From Desulforegula conservatrix Mb1Pa (GTDB lineage Bacteria > Desulfobacterota > Desulfobacteria > Desulfobacterales > Desulforegulaceae), in contig NZ_AUEY01000002.1 in NCBI RefSeq assembly GCF_000426225.1, forward strand, positions 1 through 64,000: a stretch of 64,000 bases of DNA, read 5' to 3'. Below are positions 581 to 6,914 of the stretch, piece after piece. The stretch's first letter is position 1. Each line of letters begins with the position of its first letter. The position numbers were made by a program, and so were the translations under genes. The notes under the pieces were generated by a model that saw only the letters and a list, made by a program, of their open reading frames with translations, did no database searches and was not told where the DNA came from.

Positions 581-1255
581 ATGAAGCTGCCTCTTGATAA
601 ATACTTCAAAAAATATGAAGGCCTTGTGAAACTGGTTGATGAAGCCTTTGATAAAGTGAAGTCAGAATATGGCGACTGTGTAAAATGCGCTAGCGGGTGT
701 TCGGACTGCTGTTTTGCAATCTTTGACCTGACGCTCATAGAAGCAATGTATGTTAATTATCATTTTAATCAGAAATATACTGGTGGAACAATCCGGCATG
801 ACATGATTGAGAGGGCGAACAGAGCAGACAGAAAACTCCATAAGCTGAAGAAAAAAGCTCATGCTGAAACAGTGGAGGGCAGAGATGAACTCTCCATTAT
901 TGGAGACATGTCAATGGAGCGAGTCCGGTGTCCGCTGCTAAGCATGGAAGACAAATGTGATCTGTATGAGTTCAGGCCAATCGCATGCAGAGTCTACGGC
1001 ATTCCAACATCCGCAATGGGTGTAAGCCACACCTGTGGTAAAACATCATTCGAACAGGGCAAAAAATATCCTGCGCTGAACATGGACATGGTCTACAAAA
1101 AGCTATACGAATTCTCGGCAGATTTTATTTCGGAATTGCCAACAACATACACAAGAATGAGCGATATGTTAGTGCCAGTATCCATGGCGATTCTCACTGA
1201 GTACAATGATGAATACCTTGGAATTATAAATGATGACGAGACTGGAGATAAGTAG
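581..1255 (+). CDS. YkgJ-family cysteine-cluster protein (putative Zn/Fe chelating)
   Basis: 224 residues, soluble, no signal peptide. It has the YkgJ pattern: an N-terminal C-x2-C-x3-C-x2-CC cluster (CVKCASGCSDCC, about residues 33-44). A later CPLL, then C-x2-Y-x2-RPIACRVYG, supplies further cysteines. The family is predicted to bind zinc or an Fe-S cluster; no enzymatic role is established. It is the first of four closely packed genes (next start 3 bp downstream). The putative parS site lies just upstream. No strong Shine-Dalgarno precedes this ATG, so the start is moderately uncertain. Two other proteins of this kind occur in the window (6231-6914 and 54390-55226). Confidence 0.8.
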   Translation: MKLPLDKYFKKYEGLVKLVDEAFDKVKSEYGDCVKCASGCSDCCFAIFDLTLIEAMYVNYHFNQKYTGGTIRHDMIERANRADRKLHKLKKKAHAETVEGRDELSIIGDMSMERVRCPLLSMEDKCDLYEFRPIACRVYGIPTSAMGVSHTCGKTSFEQGKKYPALNMDMVYKKLYEFSADFISELPTTYTRMSDMLVPVSMAILTEYNDEYLGIINDDETGDK

Positions 1256-1258
1256 ACT

Positions 1259-1639
1259 ATGGCAAAAGGCGGAAGTCATATAGAGTTTTCCAAAGAGGAA
1301 ATCGCCGACAAAAAGAAGGCCATTTTTGAAAGTATGGGTAAAAGAGCCCAGGACAGAGTATTAAAAAAAGGATATGATGTTTGGGATCCCTTTGAAGAAC
1401 CAAAGGATCCAATCGATATAAGAACAGATGTTTCAGAAAGAACAAGCCAGCAGCTCATAAGAGAATTTTTACAGGGTTTGAGCCATGAAGACTACAGCAC
1501 TTCTTTTGCCAGTGGAGCATGGGATCTCTGTATTGGCATTGTAAACAAAAATGAAAAATTCCTCGGTATGTACGAATTTGCTGTCTGGTATAACAATCTT
1601 CTCATCAGGGAAGGTCTTAAAGACAAAAATAAGGGGTGA
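1259..1639 (+). CDS. Uncharacterised conserved-looking protein (126 aa)
   Basis: I do not recognise the family. It is a soluble, charged protein of 126 residues with a lysine-rich N-terminus and an aromatic C-terminal part (WDLCIGIVNKNEKFLGMYEF). It starts 3 bp after the YkgJ gene, and its stop overlaps the start of the methyltransferase gene by 4 bp (GTGA). It is therefore very likely translated as part of the 581-3269 operon. No membrane segment, signal peptide or known catalytic motif is visible. Its tight coupling to both neighbours suggests a shared role, but nothing in the sequence says which. Confidence 0.7.
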   Translation: MAKGGSHIEFSKEEIADKKKAIFESMGKRAQDRVLKKGYDVWDPFEEPKDPIDIRTDVSERTSQQLIREFLQGLSHEDYSTSFASGAWDLCIGIVNKNEKFLGMYEFAVWYNNLLIREGLKDKNKG

Positions 1640-2451
1640 TTTTGTTTATCCCCTTGATAAAACAGACCATTGAAAAATCACTGGTAGAAAAACCAGAGGG
1701 TATTGTAATTGCAAAACTGATCTCAGAAATCAGAAAAGCATGTCCAAGTATTGACAGACAATCAATCAAAGAAGCGATCCGGACTCTTCTTGACGACGGA
1801 TCGCTCATGTATGTAAATAGACTCGGACAGACAATGATAAGCACAAATGTCAACCGCCCTGTCAAAATATCAGAAAGAATATGGATTGCCCCTCCGAACA
1901 CAAGCCTTCACGATATCTCGAGCGGGAGCGTGCTTATAAAAATTAGCCCGGGAATAGCATTTGGCAATGGTATTCATCCGACCACCAAAATGTGCCTGAA
2001 AGCTATGGATTTTATATTTATGTCAGGCGCGAAGATAAAATCAATGCTTGATATTGGCACAGGTACAGGAATCCTTGCAATTGCGGCATCACTTTTAGGC
2101 GCAGAAAAATGCATCGGGACAGATATAGACGCCTGTGCAAGGTCAGAGGCAAGAGCAAATATTATTTCCAACTCTATTTCAAAACAAAAAATTGACATAA
2201 TAGATACAGAAATAGGGTTACTCGCCCTCCAGCCTGACCTTGTAACTGCAAACCTTAGGTATCCGACGTTGATATCAATGTCGGATTTAATTGCATCGGC
2301 AGTAAACAAGGAAGGATATGCAATACTTTCAGGCATGCGCCCGGAAGAAAAAGAATTTGTTTGCAAAAAATACTGTAAAAAATTTGAGTTATTGCAGGAA
2401 TATAGTGAATCAGGATGGAATGCACTTCTACTCAAAACAAACACGATGTGA
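1636..2451 (+). CDS. PrmA-like methyltransferase with N-terminal winged-helix region
   Basis: 271 residues. Residues 1-70 look like a winged-helix domain (alternating helices, then GSLMYVNRLGQ). From about residue 80 it resembles ribosomal protein L11 methyltransferase PrmA: FGNGIHPTT (109-117) and the SAM-binding glycine loop DIGTGTG (139-145), then an acidic strand end (GTDID) and TANL in place of the usual NIL motif. Real PrmA proteins have a different N-terminal domain, so the substrate may not be L11. The GTG at 1636 overlaps the previous stop. A TTG at 1642 preceded by AGGGG at better spacing is an alternative start. The position inside the YkgJ operon suggests modification of a partner encoded there. 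Confidence 0.7.
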   Translation: MILFIPLIKQTIEKSLVEKPEGIVIAKLISEIRKACPSIDRQSIKEAIRTLLDDGSLMYVNRLGQTMISTNVNRPVKISERIWIAPPNTSLHDISSGSVLIKISPGIAFGNGIHPTTKMCLKAMDFIFMSGAKIKSMLDIGTGTGILAIAASLLGAEKCIGTDIDACARSEARANIISNSISKQKIDIIDTEIGLLALQPDLVTANLRYPTLISMSDLIASAVNKEGYAILSGMRPEEKEFVCKKYCKKFELLQEYSESGWNALLLKTNTM

Positions 2452-2459
2452 CAGGTTAA

Positions 2460-3269
2460 ATGATGCAGCTGACAATTGAAAAAACCCAGGTCAACCTTCC
2501 GTTCAGGATGTTCATGGAAGGCAAATATGATGAATTCATAAAAAAATACCGTATCAATCCAGAGATAGGGCTTGATGCTGTAGCATTAGATCAGTATACA
2601 GCGGAAGACTATAAAGCTGCATCCCATTTTTTTTCTGATTTGGGTAGCAGGATTACAATTCATGGGCCATTCATGGATCTTTCAGCAGGATCCCAGGATC
2701 CAGCCATAAGGGACATAACAAAAATAAGATTTGCCCAGCTTATAGAAGCAGCAAAAATTCTAAAACCGGTTCATATAGTATGCCATCCTGGCTATGAATC
2801 GAGGCGCTATTCCCAATTTCGGGAATCCTGGGTTGAGAAGAGCCTGGAAATATGGACCTGGTTGGCTGAAAAACTGGGAGAGTCAGAATGCAGGCTCATG
2901 CTTGAAAATGTATATGAAGATGGCCCAGAAGATATCAAGATTTTTTTTGAAAGGCTCGAAAAATTTAATGTGGGCTTTTGTCTTGATACAGGGCATCATT
3001 TTGCATTTGGAAAGGCAAGCCTCGAAACATGGATAAAAGAACTGGGGGGATATATCGGCCATATACACCTGCATGATAATTGCGGAGACTCGGACGGCCA
3101 TATGCCTCCTGGCCAGGGCAGAATTGATTTTAGCCATTTACTCAAATATCTCGATGAAAAAAGGAACTGCCTCCCAATAATTACATTTGAACCGCATGAA
3201 GAAAAAGACTACTGGCCCTCCCTTGAATATCTGAAAAAATTTTTCCACAAACAAGAAATAAAAACTTAA
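2460..3269 (+). CDS. Sugar phosphate isomerase/epimerase-like TIM-barrel protein
   Basis: 269 residues of the xylose-isomerase-like/AP-endonuclease-2 superfamily. Metal-ligand signatures appear in order: HGPF near residue 70, VCHPGYE near 110, MLENV with the conserved glutamate, FCLDTGHHFAFG, HIHLHDNCG with a following DGHMPPGQG, and a late TFEPHE. These match the metal-binding Glu/Asp/His set of the family. The substrate cannot be told from sequence. It is the last gene of the 581-3269 operon, 8 bp after the methyltransferase. Two adjacent ATGs (2460 and 2463) are both possible starts after AGGTTAA. Confidence 0.8.
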   Translation: MMQLTIEKTQVNLPFRMFMEGKYDEFIKKYRINPEIGLDAVALDQYTAEDYKAASHFFSDLGSRITIHGPFMDLSAGSQDPAIRDITKIRFAQLIEAAKILKPVHIVCHPGYESRRYSQFRESWVEKSLEIWTWLAEKLGESECRLMLENVYEDGPEDIKIFFERLEKFNVGFCLDTGHHFAFGKASLETWIKELGGYIGHIHLHDNCGDSDGHMPPGQGRIDFSHLLKYLDEKRNCLPIITFEPHEEKDYWPSLEYLKKFFHKQEIKT

Positions 3270-3357: not shown

Positions 3358-5079
3358 CTATCCAGAGACAGTTCTTAAATAATTTGCCGCCATCCTTGGC
3401 GAGATCCTCGAGTAAACATCAAAATCACTCATTATTTCAAGTCCCGGTATAATGGCCTTAACAACAGGGAAATCCGTATCTTTTCTCGAAATATCCACAT
3501 AGACCGGCGCGTAGCCGTTCGAAACAAGTGTCTGTTCAAGTATGTAAAGATCCTGATAAGGATTTTCTGTCGTATAATCCGGCAAATCTTCAAGAAGAAG
3601 GGTTTGAAGATTTTCAAAATGACTTCCTGAAGGTGGGCCATAGGGAAAAGGATATGGGGTCTCCATGAGCGCTGAAAGAAGCGCTTTTTTTGCGCTCAAA
3701 CCAGCGCCGGTTCCTTTCAGTATTCTTCCTGAACTGTCAACAACGAAGCACCTGTAGCAGGGTATGCCAATTTCATTTGAAATATCCTGGAACTGTATTT
3801 GAATTCCGCGGTTAGCATACGCAGAAAATAACTGAGACAGCTCCTGATCATTAGTTGAAATTTTAAAGCAATGAGATCTGTCAAAAACAGAAATGGCATC
3901 ACAGTCCCTTTCTATGCATTCTATAAGAGCCGCTGTCTTGGCCATGGCCATATCTGTATGAGCAGCAAGGCCGGTGGAACCGAGACCTGAAAAAAGATCT
4001 ATCTCGTCGAGATTGGAAAATAAATAAACCATTTGAACCGGGACAAATATTTCATGCAAGCCGTCCGCACCTATCTGTTCGCCCAATGTCCACCAGAGAG
4101 GCTCGTCATTGTAAGGAATTTCAAGCTTAATACAAGAGGGATCGAGGGCGTTGTTTGATATTTCAGAAAAGCGAGAATAAACAAGGGGACGTTCATTTTT
4201 GCATTCTGTGATCAAACACGATTCAACAGAAGCATAAGAACAGTATCTTTCAAGAACCTCCATTACGCATGAGGCCCTAGCATCATCGAGATAGAGTCCT
4301 TTGCCATAAGCCGTGTGAATCCCTGAAAGCAAAAAATTATTTCTGCCGGAATCGATGGATCGGTGAAGTTTCCATTTGCGCAGCAGAGCAATTGGGCTTA
4401 GGGAAGAGACATGACGCATTTCAGATTCAAAGAAAACCCCTGCATTTTCCAGTTTGTCAAAAGCAAGCTTGGCTGCTCCAACAGCAGAGATAATTCTCTT
4501 TGGATAGTCATGCTCTATATGAAAGGAATCAGAATGAATTGCCCCAATATGCAAAGAGCCTGATGAACATTGATGGCAGGAAAGGTTAATGCTGCTCCGC
4601 AGCATAAGAATATCATTGTCTGCTAATTTCTTTAATGGATTGTGATGAACAATATTATCACGAAGTATGGGAATCAGTTTCAAGTCAATTTCTCTGTCCT
4701 GTAGGTATGCGGATCGAAGATTGATGAGAGGTGAATTAATGACAGCCGCATCAAAATCAAAAAACAGGGAAAGATCTTTTAATTCTGGATTTAATAAGCA
4801 CGACTCCAGAAAAACGGATTGGACCGGAAAACTCCAATCAGAACGAGATTCTAATAAAGAGATCCATTCCGCAAGTGGCAATGAGCATATACAATTAAGT
4901 GCATGCCCATGCAGAAAAGTATCCATCGGTCTTACTGAAAGTAAATCTAACATGTCGTTCAAAGTCATGCGGTCTGCTGGTACACAAGTAAAATAACCTG
5001 TTACAGCCTCTGTGCTATCAAGCCTCATCTCAAAAGAAATCGTTCTGTTACATACCATCAGGGAAATAATCCTTCTCAC
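3358..5079 (-). CDS. Stand-alone YcaO-domain protein
   Basis: 573 residues. YcaO proteins use ATP to activate amide backbones, forming azolines, thioamides or amidines, or act as accessory factors in S12 methylthiolation. The C-terminal two thirds carry the YcaO nucleotide-binding pattern: GKG (259-261) followed by EVLERY (274-279), then SGLGSTG and ECIERD (387-392). The C-terminus IPGLEIM is also family-like. The N-terminal ~200 residues are not YcaO and contain a CHQC motif (168-171). The region matching the usual Mg-binding EA-x-Q-x-R segment reads ETPYPFPYG, which is atypical. No RiPP precursor, TfuA, docking or dehydrogenase gene is adjacent. The GTG start overlaps the end of the upstream DUF2064 gene by 32 bp, so the two are co-transcribed; an ATG at 5058 is an alternative start. 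Confidence 0.8.
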   Translation of the reverse strand: MRRIISLMVCNRTISFEMRLDSTEAVTGYFTCVPADRMTLNDMLDLLSVRPMDTFLHGHALNCICSLPLAEWISLLESRSDWSFPVQSVFLESCLLNPELKDLSLFFDFDAAVINSPLINLRSAYLQDREIDLKLIPILRDNIVHHNPLKKLADNDILMLRSSINLSCHQCSSGSLHIGAIHSDSFHIEHDYPKRIISAVGAAKLAFDKLENAGVFFESEMRHVSSLSPIALLRKWKLHRSIDSGRNNFLLSGIHTAYGKGLYLDDARASCVMEVLERYCSYASVESCLITECKNERPLVYSRFSEISNNALDPSCIKLEIPYNDEPLWWTLGEQIGADGLHEIFVPVQMVYLFSNLDEIDLFSGLGSTGLAAHTDMAMAKTAALIECIERDCDAISVFDRSHCFKISTNDQELSQLFSAYANRGIQIQFQDISNEIGIPCYRCFVVDSSGRILKGTGAGLSAKKALLSALMETPYPFPYGPPSGSHFENLQTLLLEDLPDYTTENPYQDLYILEQTLVSNGYAPVYVDISRKDTDFPVVKAIIPGLEIMSDFDVYSRISPRMAANYLRTVSG

Positions 5080-5746
5080 TTAAAATCCTATTGAGTCTTG
5101 GACTCAGTGATCTGTTTTCGTTAAGGAAATTTTTATAAAACTGGAGATCAGACAAATCATCAAGGTCTCTTAAGGGCATAATCGTGTCATGCGTTAGTCC
5201 TCTATTTTTAATTTTCGATACAGTCTCGGAAAAAACAGAAGGAGAGCTCCAGGCTATCCCGGTAAAAAAAGATTCACATAATGATTCCTTATTCAATCCT
5301 ATCAAATAATACCCACCATCCTCGGCAGGGCCAAGCACGGCATCATGGCTGGAAAGAGCGCTGAAAGCAGAATCAATATGATCTAAGGATATTGCAGGAA
5401 TATCCGAACCAAAGCAGGCAATTTGATCAAAACCAAGGCTGATTTGCTCCATAAATGAATTAAACATTCGCCCCCCAAGATCTGAACCCTTCTGGGGTAA
5501 AACATTATCAACAGATAAGGAGTATTCGGCAGAAAAAGAAGTGGCTGCCTCCGGAGGATAAATATAAAAACAACAGGAAAATAATTTCTGAAAAGCAAAT
5601 TTGTCAATCAGATCCGAAAGCATGGCTTGATAAATCAGACAGGATTGTTCATGACCCAAGGAACTGGACAATCTTGTCTTTACTTTGCCAGGCTCGGGGT
5701 ATTTAGCAAAGATAATAATGGTTTTTGAGGGGTGAGACTTTATCAT
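5048..5746 (-). CDS. DUF2064/TIGR04282-family glycosyltransferase-like protein
   Basis: 232 residues. The N-terminus IIIFAKYPEPGKVKTRLS is the signature of the TIGR04282/DUF2064 family, which has a nucleotide-diphospho-sugar transferase (GT-A) fold. CFGSDIPAI supplies the DxD-like metal site and GPAEDGGYYLIGL the conserved acceptor-side motif. Some relatives act in arsenosugar synthesis; nothing here points to arsenic. It is the first gene of a two-gene operon with the YcaO gene, whose start lies inside this ORF. Upstream is a long repeat-containing intergenic region. Confidence 0.85.
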   Translation of the reverse strand: MIKSHPSKTIIIFAKYPEPGKVKTRLSSSLGHEQSCLIYQAMLSDLIDKFAFQKLFSCCFYIYPPEAATSFSAEYSLSVDNVLPQKGSDLGGRMFNSFMEQISLGFDQIACFGSDIPAISLDHIDSAFSALSSHDAVLGPAEDGGYYLIGLNKESLCESFFTGIAWSSPSVFSETVSKIKNRGLTHDTIMPLRDLDDLSDLQFYKNFLNENRSLSPRLNRILSEKDYFPDGM

Positions 5747-5907: not shown

Positions 5908-6230
5908 TTCACATTCGCTATTTTGATCTGTGAATGTGGCTATAAGCGTAACCTTAAAAAGAATATTTCAGTTAATATCTTGGGCCAAGCCTTAATTAAT
6001 AAAAAGTTCAACGTCAAATAAAATCTATAGGCGTAAGAACAAACCTTGAATTATTGGAGCAGACTTTAATAAAAAACAGCCAATGCCAGAAAATACAGAT
6101 AAAAGCTCTGGCATGAAATTCTATAAATATGAACTGAAAATGATCATGATATCGGTTATGTTTTGACCTATCATTTTATGAGTGATATTGATTTCGATCG
6201 TTTTAATGATACGTATTTATGAGGTTCTAT
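5908..6230. other. Intergenic stretch, nothing recognised
   Basis: AT-rich and without a supported ORF. Several short palindromic words occur (for example around TGATCATGATATC at 6142-6154), but no promoter or RNA could be assigned. Confidence 0.4.
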
Positions 6231-6914
6231 ATGAAAGCAATACAGATTCCAGGGTTAGGCGAAATTTCATCATGCATCAAGTGCGGAGCCTGCTGCCGCC
6301 TGAGCTCACCAGATCTTTTTCATTCTGACAGTCATTTAATTGAAAGGGGAAATATCCCTATTAAATATTTATTTACGATGCGCGAAGGTGAACCTTATAA
6401 AAATCCTAAAACGAGGAAGCTTGATCACCTGAAATCAGACATAATCAAAATAAAGCCCCGGGATGAAGAAATACCTTCATGCCTCTTCCATGATGAAGAG
6501 ACACAGGAATGTGGCATTTATCAATCAAGGCCATCTGTATGCCGAGCATTCAAATGCTGGGACAAAAGGCAAATTGATCCGGTGAAGACATCTCCCTTTC
6601 TTACAAGAAAAGATCTGCTAGGAGAAACAGGGATGTGGGATCTTATTCAGGAGCATCAGAAAAGATGCGATTACAGAAAAATGAAAGACTATGCGGAAAT
6701 CATACTTGCTGAAGAAAATCAGGAAATGGGAAGAGAAATTGTCTCTATGCTCTCCTATGACAGATCAGTGAGGGATACCGCAATTGAAAAAGGTAAAATG
6801 GATAAAGACCTTATGGATTTTTTGTTTGGCAGACAGATGATTGTTTCACTTCCGTTATTCAAGCTGAAATTAGAAACAGGAAGCATGGGAAAGCAGATAT
6901 TAACTCGTTTGTGA
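6231..6914 (+). CDS. YkgJ-family cysteine-cluster protein
   Basis: 227 residues from the chosen ATG. The N-terminal cluster C-x2-C-x2-CC (CIKCGACC, about residues 15-22) and the later CLFHDEETQECGIYQSRPSVC with CRAFKC match the YkgJ pattern, in which these cysteines are predicted to bind a metal or Fe-S cluster. The C-terminal 70 residues are helical and unlike those of the other two relatives here. An upstream in-frame ATG at 6219 exists, but GAGG lies 6 bases before the ATG at 6231, so the latter is preferred. It is a single gene with a long upstream gap. Function unknown. Confidence 0.75.
   Translation: MKAIQIPGLGEISSCIKCGACCRLSSPDLFHSDSHLIERGNIPIKYLFTMREGEPYKNPKTRKLDHLKSDIIKIKPRDEEIPSCLFHDEETQECGIYQSRPSVCRAFKCWDKRQIDPVKTSPFLTRKDLLGETGMWDLIQEHQKRCDYRKMKDYAEIILAEENQEMGREIVSMLSYDRSVRDTAIEKGKMDKDLMDFLFGRQMIVSLPLFKLKLETGSMGKQILTRL

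Follow-up and report, generated by a model that had tools for sequence, protein, structure and literature searches.

A YcaO protein family recurrently encoded beside dissimilatory sulfite reductase genes

The ycaO gene of the window (the whole 64,000-nucleotide stretch of the Desulforegula conservatrix Mb1Pa genome that was analysed) belongs to a YcaO family whose recurring association is with genes of dissimilatory sulfite reduction (dsr). The preliminary description had coupled this gene to an overlapping DUF2064 gene. We found that the gene is real, and that what makes it unusual is not the reason given there but its membership in a dsr-linked YcaO family. The window YcaO is no orphan, as relatives were found in genomes of the phylum and of the same order. 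Because genes of the family often adjoin sulfite-reduction genes, a core protein of sulfur respiration may carry a chemical modification that has gone unnoticed, and our tentative reading, drawn from sequence comparison, is that the window YcaO may be a protein-modifying, probably thioamidating enzyme that acts on behalf of the dissimilatory sulfite reductase (Dsr) system. Sulfate respiration has Dsr as its central enzyme. If this reading were true, YcaO would have a third protein substrate after McrA and uL16, one that belongs to a core set of enzymes in the sulfur cycle. With such a conserved family lying beside dsr genes, the suspected modification of Dsr is directly testable in laboratory strains.

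The gene (3358..5079, minus strand) was defined by its open reading frame, by Pfam and NCBIfam matches and by its relatives, and it encodes 573 residues from a GTG start. The N-terminal length of the relatives is matched better by a start at the ATG that lies in frame at codon 8 (position 5058); the 32 bp overlap with the DUF2064 reading frame that had been described before is correct for the GTG and becomes 11 bp with the ATG. The protein matched Pfam YcaO (PF02624) at 1.4e-41 with 143 bits against a gathering score of 25.7, which places it in the superfamily, and the best stretch covered residues 259-473 together with a C-terminal piece. A Pfam scan of 28 family members matched no family besides YcaO. 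The scores against the NCBIfam models were all below the cut-offs: 115 bits against 219 for TIGR03604, 90.3 bits against 365 for TIGR03266, and 56 against 76 for TIGR00702. Among the seven other genes scanned around ycaO there was no TfuA (hence no adjacent tfuA to form a YcaO-TfuA pair), no E1-like cyclodehydratase partner and no dehydrogenase, and no RiPP context was found, so the earlier view of a stand-alone gene holds for the genes scanned. AlphaFold2 with four sequences gave a mean pLDDT of 35, too low for the model to be used.

The ATP-binding motifs had been called intact, and this was confirmed for the first two. The first ATP/Mg motif (4246..4272, minus strand; residues 270-278, SCVMEVLER) and the second (3904..3978, minus strand; residues 368-392, STGLAAHT...ECIERD) contain E274, E277, R278, E387, E390 and R391, which are invariant in 28 of 28 aligned members. 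The second motif has STG in 24 of 30 members and SNG or TNG in the remaining six (families f15, f48, f59 and f78), a form that is found in other YcaO subfamilies. The C-terminal catalytic segment, said earlier to be altered, is indeed changed at the third motif (3619..3684, minus strand; residues 466-487, ALLSALMETPYPFPYGPPSGSH) in all 30 members aligned: the Q or R of other subfamilies is absent and the next loop is short. Other YcaO subfamilies in the same alignment also vary at these positions. E473 is invariant among the 28 aligned members, and R532 and D534 are nearly so. The extra N-terminal region, first put at about 200 residues, covers approximately residues 1-240 (4360..5079, minus strand), is specific to the family and conserved among its members, and was without match in Pfam or in a PDB sequence search. 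Its residues common to 30 aligned members include P34, P51, D53, F55, N142, P229, R234 and W236. The CHQC within it (4567..4578, minus strand; residues 168-171), which had been pointed out earlier, is not conserved; gaps or other residues stand there in the remaining 29 of 30 members, and it was rejected as a zinc motif.

Protein searches showed full-length or near full-length relatives in 29 of 395 genomes of the phylum, the window's genome counted, and the others had 33-43% identity over the matched part; weaker matches in further phylum genomes were YcaO domains with far lower scores. Within the same order, 75 of 291 genomes (again counting the window's) had a family match at E < 1e-30, some of them fragmentary. 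YcaO domain matches occurred in six plasmid records, none with 80% coverage, and viral contigs gave no match. In a quick tree of 60 rows, which did not include MJ1094, the 21 family rows formed one clade (SH-aLRT 100) on the McrA/TfuA-like side, away from E. coli YcaO, so the grouping with E. coli YcaO, which had been named in advance as an outcome against the earlier proposal, was not found; the deeper branching order is unsure because E. coli YcaO (branch length 2.43) and a few other rows have long branches. A profile of 28 members matched MJ1094 best in the PDB (1.2e-32) and also matched TruD (7e-22), LynD, MusD and 6ci7, but E. coli YcaO was barely matched (0.0069). The isoelectric point was 5.1-6.5 in 29 of 30 members and 8.9 in one (L065), against 4.4 for E. 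coli YcaO.

The gene neighbourhood was surveyed in the window and 90 other loci from 30 families, namely two named Desulfovibrio records, 28 stretches of phylum genomes and 60 stretches of order genomes, and reading frames within 7 kb of ycaO were clustered without preset labels. Of the 74 further genomes of the order that gave a family match at E < 1e-30, 12 were left out, G070 (a 3.8 kb contig) and L009 (a near-duplicate of L007) lay outside the survey, L007 and L008 are near-duplicates, L066 is a fragment, and many of the surveyed loci end at contig ends. The top neighbours by number of families were TatA/B (19 loci in 10 families), TatC (21 in 10), DsrN (17 in 10), DsrD (15 in 8) and a c3-type cytochrome (14 in 8); DsrA/B was near ycaO at 11 loci in 6 families and DsrM/K/J/O/P in 4 families, with DsrM and DsrK adjoining ycaO in f7, f129, f154 and f158. 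One example each of DsrA, DsrB, DsrM, DsrK, TatC, TatA/B, L13, S9, L28 and DsrC was checked against a model, and the neighbours labelled DsrD, DsrJ, DsrO, DsrP and DsrN are presumed to be such, chiefly from their position. This analysis showed dsr genes (dsrABDN or dsrMKJOP) within about 7 kb at 19 of the 91 loci, 17 with dsrN and 2 with dsrMKJOP only. The YcaO family is a single clade with a common N-terminal region, and its dsr linkage is seen in only 12 of the 30 families. In the other 18 families, contigs cut short included, there was no counted dsr gene, nor was there one at the 12 Desulfovibrio-type loci that have rplM-rpsI upstream. A DsrK-like match 6.8 kb from ycaO in L054 (at the stretch end; 238 bits against a cut-off of 400) and a weak one in L155 were not counted.

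In the usual order, TPR-p376/404-dsrA-dsrB-dsrD-dsrN converges on tatB-tatC-ycaO-cytochrome c3, and the median distance between ycaO and the class III-type multihaem cytochrome gene (for example L178:8133-8657) is 141 bp. There are also layouts in which dsrN is divergent from ycaO (L051), or in which ycaO is divergent from dsrMKJOP, the latter in four families (L059, L151, L189, L203). A rough chance estimate for the linkage gave a binomial probability of about 1e-16 if about 1% is assumed per genome and about 9e-9 at 5%, with families that are not truly independent. A single order supplies much of the linkage, which could be synteny inherited together with tatBC.

Presence of dsrA was scored with TIGR02064 at E of at most 1e-80, which found it in 190 of the 395 phylum genomes. 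It was present in 28 of 29 ycaO-positive genomes vs 162 of 366 ycaO-negative ones, with a Fisher p of 8.9e-9 that ignores relatedness and overstates independence because f50 alone supplies 13 of the 29 positives. The exception is G297, with ycaO and no clear dsrA; in G335 and G235, both counted among the 28, dsrA is represented only by fragments where contigs end or break. At the order level the co-occurrence tells little, because nearly all genomes there have dsrA (247 of 291). Since 162 of the 190 dsrA-positive phylum genomes are without the family, Dsr works without this YcaO. We also compared DsrA and DsrB residues in 58 genomes picked for within-family contrasts, phylogeny ignored (35 ycaO-positive, 34 for DsrB, vs 23 negative, of which G526 and G188 are less than 85% complete), and no column tracked ycaO, the best reaching 0.37 bits. 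A backbone modification need not leave a residue trace in these proteins.

Among known YcaO systems, the one that thioamidates a glycine of McrA (TIGR03266) is the nearest, in that MJ1094 (PDB 6PE3), which we take to be the M. jannaschii enzyme for McrA, is the best PDB relative of the family by sequence and by profile. The target of that enzyme is also a tetrapyrrole enzyme of anaerobic respiration, and the sections consulted of one report describe thioglycine in M. jannaschii without TfuA, so the McrA enzyme works without it there (PMC5589413). The window family differs by about 240 extra N-terminal residues, by the altered third motif, by being bacterial, by linkage to dsr and not mcr, and by scores below the TIGR03266 equivalog cut-off. 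E. coli YcaO, which is annotated as an S12 accessory factor, is likewise a stand-alone protein outside RiPP clusters and without TfuA; in the consulted parts of PMC13063428, it thioamidates folded uL16 with ATP, Mg2+ and Na2S in an organism that has no TfuA. The separate clade, the marginal profile match and the higher isoelectric point set the window family apart from this type. With the RiPP azoline YcaOs (the SagD family TIGR03604; LynD and TruD) the family has the ATP domain in common, and it is distinguished from them by the TIGR03604 score and the missing partner among the genes scanned. DVU2210 of D. vulgaris, which is linked to molybdate sensitivity, is another YcaO of a sulfate reducer; compared by its description in the part of PMC7774982 consulted, it has a YcaO + TPR architecture and an ATP motif unlike that of the window YcaO, and we judged the two to be different. 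In the portions seen of the literature on YcaO with dissimilatory sulfite reductase or Desulfovibrio, we found no report of a YcaO-Dsr link; work on archaeal alkane oxidation matched both terms. The searched literature gave no mention of DVU2518-2520.

In the chemistry set out in the sections of PMC13063428 consulted, nucleophilic attack on the carbonyl of a backbone amide comes first, then phosphorylation with ATP and elimination; with sulfide, a thioamide results. Its authors knew of no characterised protein thioamides other than those of McrA and uL16, and such a change is easily mistaken for oxidation (+15.977 vs +15.995 Da). What our analysis shows is the family, its clade, the conserved Mg/ATP glutamates, and the linkage and co-occurrence with dsr. 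By analogy, the family would be an active YcaO of sulfate reducers that stands alone, needs no TfuA and does for a Dsr protein what McrA YcaO does for MCR. Some folded protein of the Dsr system would have one of its backbone amides activated with ATP, most likely for an exchange of O for S with the sulfide that sulfate reducers make in bulk; the candidate substrates are DsrA, DsrB, DsrC or a subunit of DsrMKJOP. The family-specific N-terminal region might take the part of an RRE or TfuA and dock the substrate. The departure of the third motif from that of active YcaOs counts against this Dsr reading. A wider proposal, which we regard as possible but doubtful, is that the proteins behind dissimilatory sulfite reduction carry a YcaO-installed backbone thioamide, as in methanogenesis, and that the family and the YcaO subfamilies linked to dsrC or dsrN are the maturation enzyme.

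The changed third motif also raises the question of a pseudo-enzyme that binds ATP and a partner and has lost catalysis, as the Q or R is absent and the next loop shortened across the 30 members aligned; yet E473 and the glutamates that bind Mg never vary among the aligned members, R532 and D534 are nearly invariant, and the third-motif positions vary in other subfamilies too, which makes this reading rather improbable in our judgement. We consider it unlikely that the family modifies a ribosomal protein (e.g. uS9 or uL13), as E. coli YcaO does with uL16 in the sections of PMC13063428 seen, and that the dsr linkage is incidental. At the 12 Desulfovibrio-type loci rplM-rpsI precedes ycaO in the same orientation, in L042 it follows the gene of the ribosome-biogenesis GTPase YihA/YsxC (EngB) by 4 bp, and the L28 gene is one gene away in L047 (model-checked) and apparently in L058. 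But only a part of one family (f50 and the D. piger-type records) has rplM-rpsI there, by the ORF starts used 8 of these 12 loci have a gap of 85-287 bp before ycaO, and the clade excludes E. coli YcaO, from which the isoelectric points also differ (5.1-6.5 in all but L065, vs 4.4). The co-occurrence with dsrA, seen in 28 of the 29 ycaO-positive genomes of the phylum, would also be odd for a ribosomal factor.

The tatB-tatC-ycaO-cytochrome c3 unit can be read as a YcaO that modifies an exported redox partner or aids Tat export, with dsr merely next door. The spacing would suit this, as tatC abuts or overlaps ycaO at 21 loci (median -3 bp) and the cytochrome gene is close at 14, but dsr linkage occurs without tatC in the stretches read of L051, L164, L151 and L189, and in the window's own genome tatC adjoins dsrN without ycaO, so we think this explanation also has little likelihood. 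Another target could be a cofactor and not a protein, namely the amide of siroheme amide, processed by YcaO and DsrN. It is dsrN that is the commonest dsr neighbour (17 loci), and the parts consulted of PMC10504309 hold DsrN, which is homologous to CbiA and to CfbB (F430 pathway), to amidate siroheme; the homology was supported by a family match in our analysis. Against this stand the linkage of ycaO to dsrMKJOP as well, which is not known to carry siroheme, and the far wider spread of dsrA than of the family YcaO. The same is true of dsrN by the consulted text of PMC10504309, and the YcaOs described in the sections seen of PMC13063428 have peptides or proteins as their substrates. A siroheme target therefore seems improbable to us. 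Joint action of YcaO and DUF2064 on a peptide or amide substrate, which the preliminary description had proposed, is very improbable. The DUF2064/TIGR04282 glycosyltransferase-like gene (5048..5746, minus strand) lies upstream and overlaps ycaO in the window, but a DUF2064 homologue adjoins ycaO at 0 of 90 other loci (phmmer, E 1e-6); the pair is thus unlinked in relatives, which had been named in advance as the outcome that would speak against the proposal, and it is largely refuted.

On the other side of ycaO in the window lie four plus-strand genes, coding for a CxxCxxCC-domain protein (581..1255), p126 (126 residues; 1259..1639; without Pfam match), a PrmA-like methyltransferase recognised by Pfam and a homologue survey (1636..2451), and a TIM-barrel (AP_endonuc_2) protein (2460..3269) whose gene is convergent with ycaO. 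In the window and at six f144 loci the CxxCxxCC gene lies beside ycaO, mostly with p126/p117 and the PrmA-like gene, and at f6 loci a PrmA-like gene directly follows ycaO (at 40, 20 and 4 bp in L043, L156 and L161). The same CxxCxxCC, p126/p117 and PrmA-like set flanks dsrA in G036 and G389, where p117 is the counterpart of p126 and the set lies between TPR-p404-dsrAB and ATP synthase genes. PrmA-like homologues are near dsrAB in three genomes without the family ycaO and adjoin ycaO in others; as a presence/absence marker the gene was uninformative, with matches in 77 of 80 genomes, many probably through true PrmA. The TIM-barrel gene is near ycaO also in L059, L151 and L203 and is widespread without it, and it was rejected as a partner, given some match in 58 of 80 genomes and absence from the f50 genomes tested. 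In the window's genome dsrAB is on the same contig as ycaO at a distance of about 130 kb and adjoins tatBC. A recurring dsr-flanking set comprises a TPR protein, p376/p404 (without Pfam match), the PrmA-like methyltransferase, p117/p126, the CxxCxxCC protein and a HEAT-repeat protein (L107:5100-8825, L251:682-4285, window 581-2451). A second CxxCxxCC-domain protein is encoded at window 6219-6914, upstream of the DUF2064 gene and on the opposite strand.

YcaO paralogues of other subfamilies (TPR, 438-aa, 516-aa and 489-aa types) adjoin dsrC or dsrN in several families (L087/L286, L092/L292, L094/L289, L282, L283, L251, L099/L300, L051), which speaks for the Dsr reading. A TPR-clade YcaO adjoins dsrC in G172, G297, G040, G277 and G391, the 516-aa type adjoins a DsrC-like gene in G120, the 438-aa type follows dsrN-dsrC in G273, and the 489-aa type is just downstream of dsrN in G004. 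A YcaO was within 1.5 kb of dsrC at 7 of 30 dsrC loci from 27 genomes, five of them preselected as known pairs. A protein of about 110 residues (DUF6955) is encoded between dsrC and YcaO in G273 (L104:573-896), and one of this type is directly upstream of ycaO at L164:8355-8690 and within the stretch at L201:17394-17732. The window's genome has two further YcaOs, one on contig C31 (about 580 aa, TPR-type clade) and one on contig C23 (421 aa). The best NCBIfam match of the YcaO on C23 was the McrA-thioamidation type, below the cut-off, and its locus (L102:5029-8382), with an overlapping TfuA-like gene and a reading frame for a Nif11-type leader peptide, is a probable thioamide RiPP cluster. Neighbouring reading frames there resemble radical-SAM proteins, as judged by reading only.
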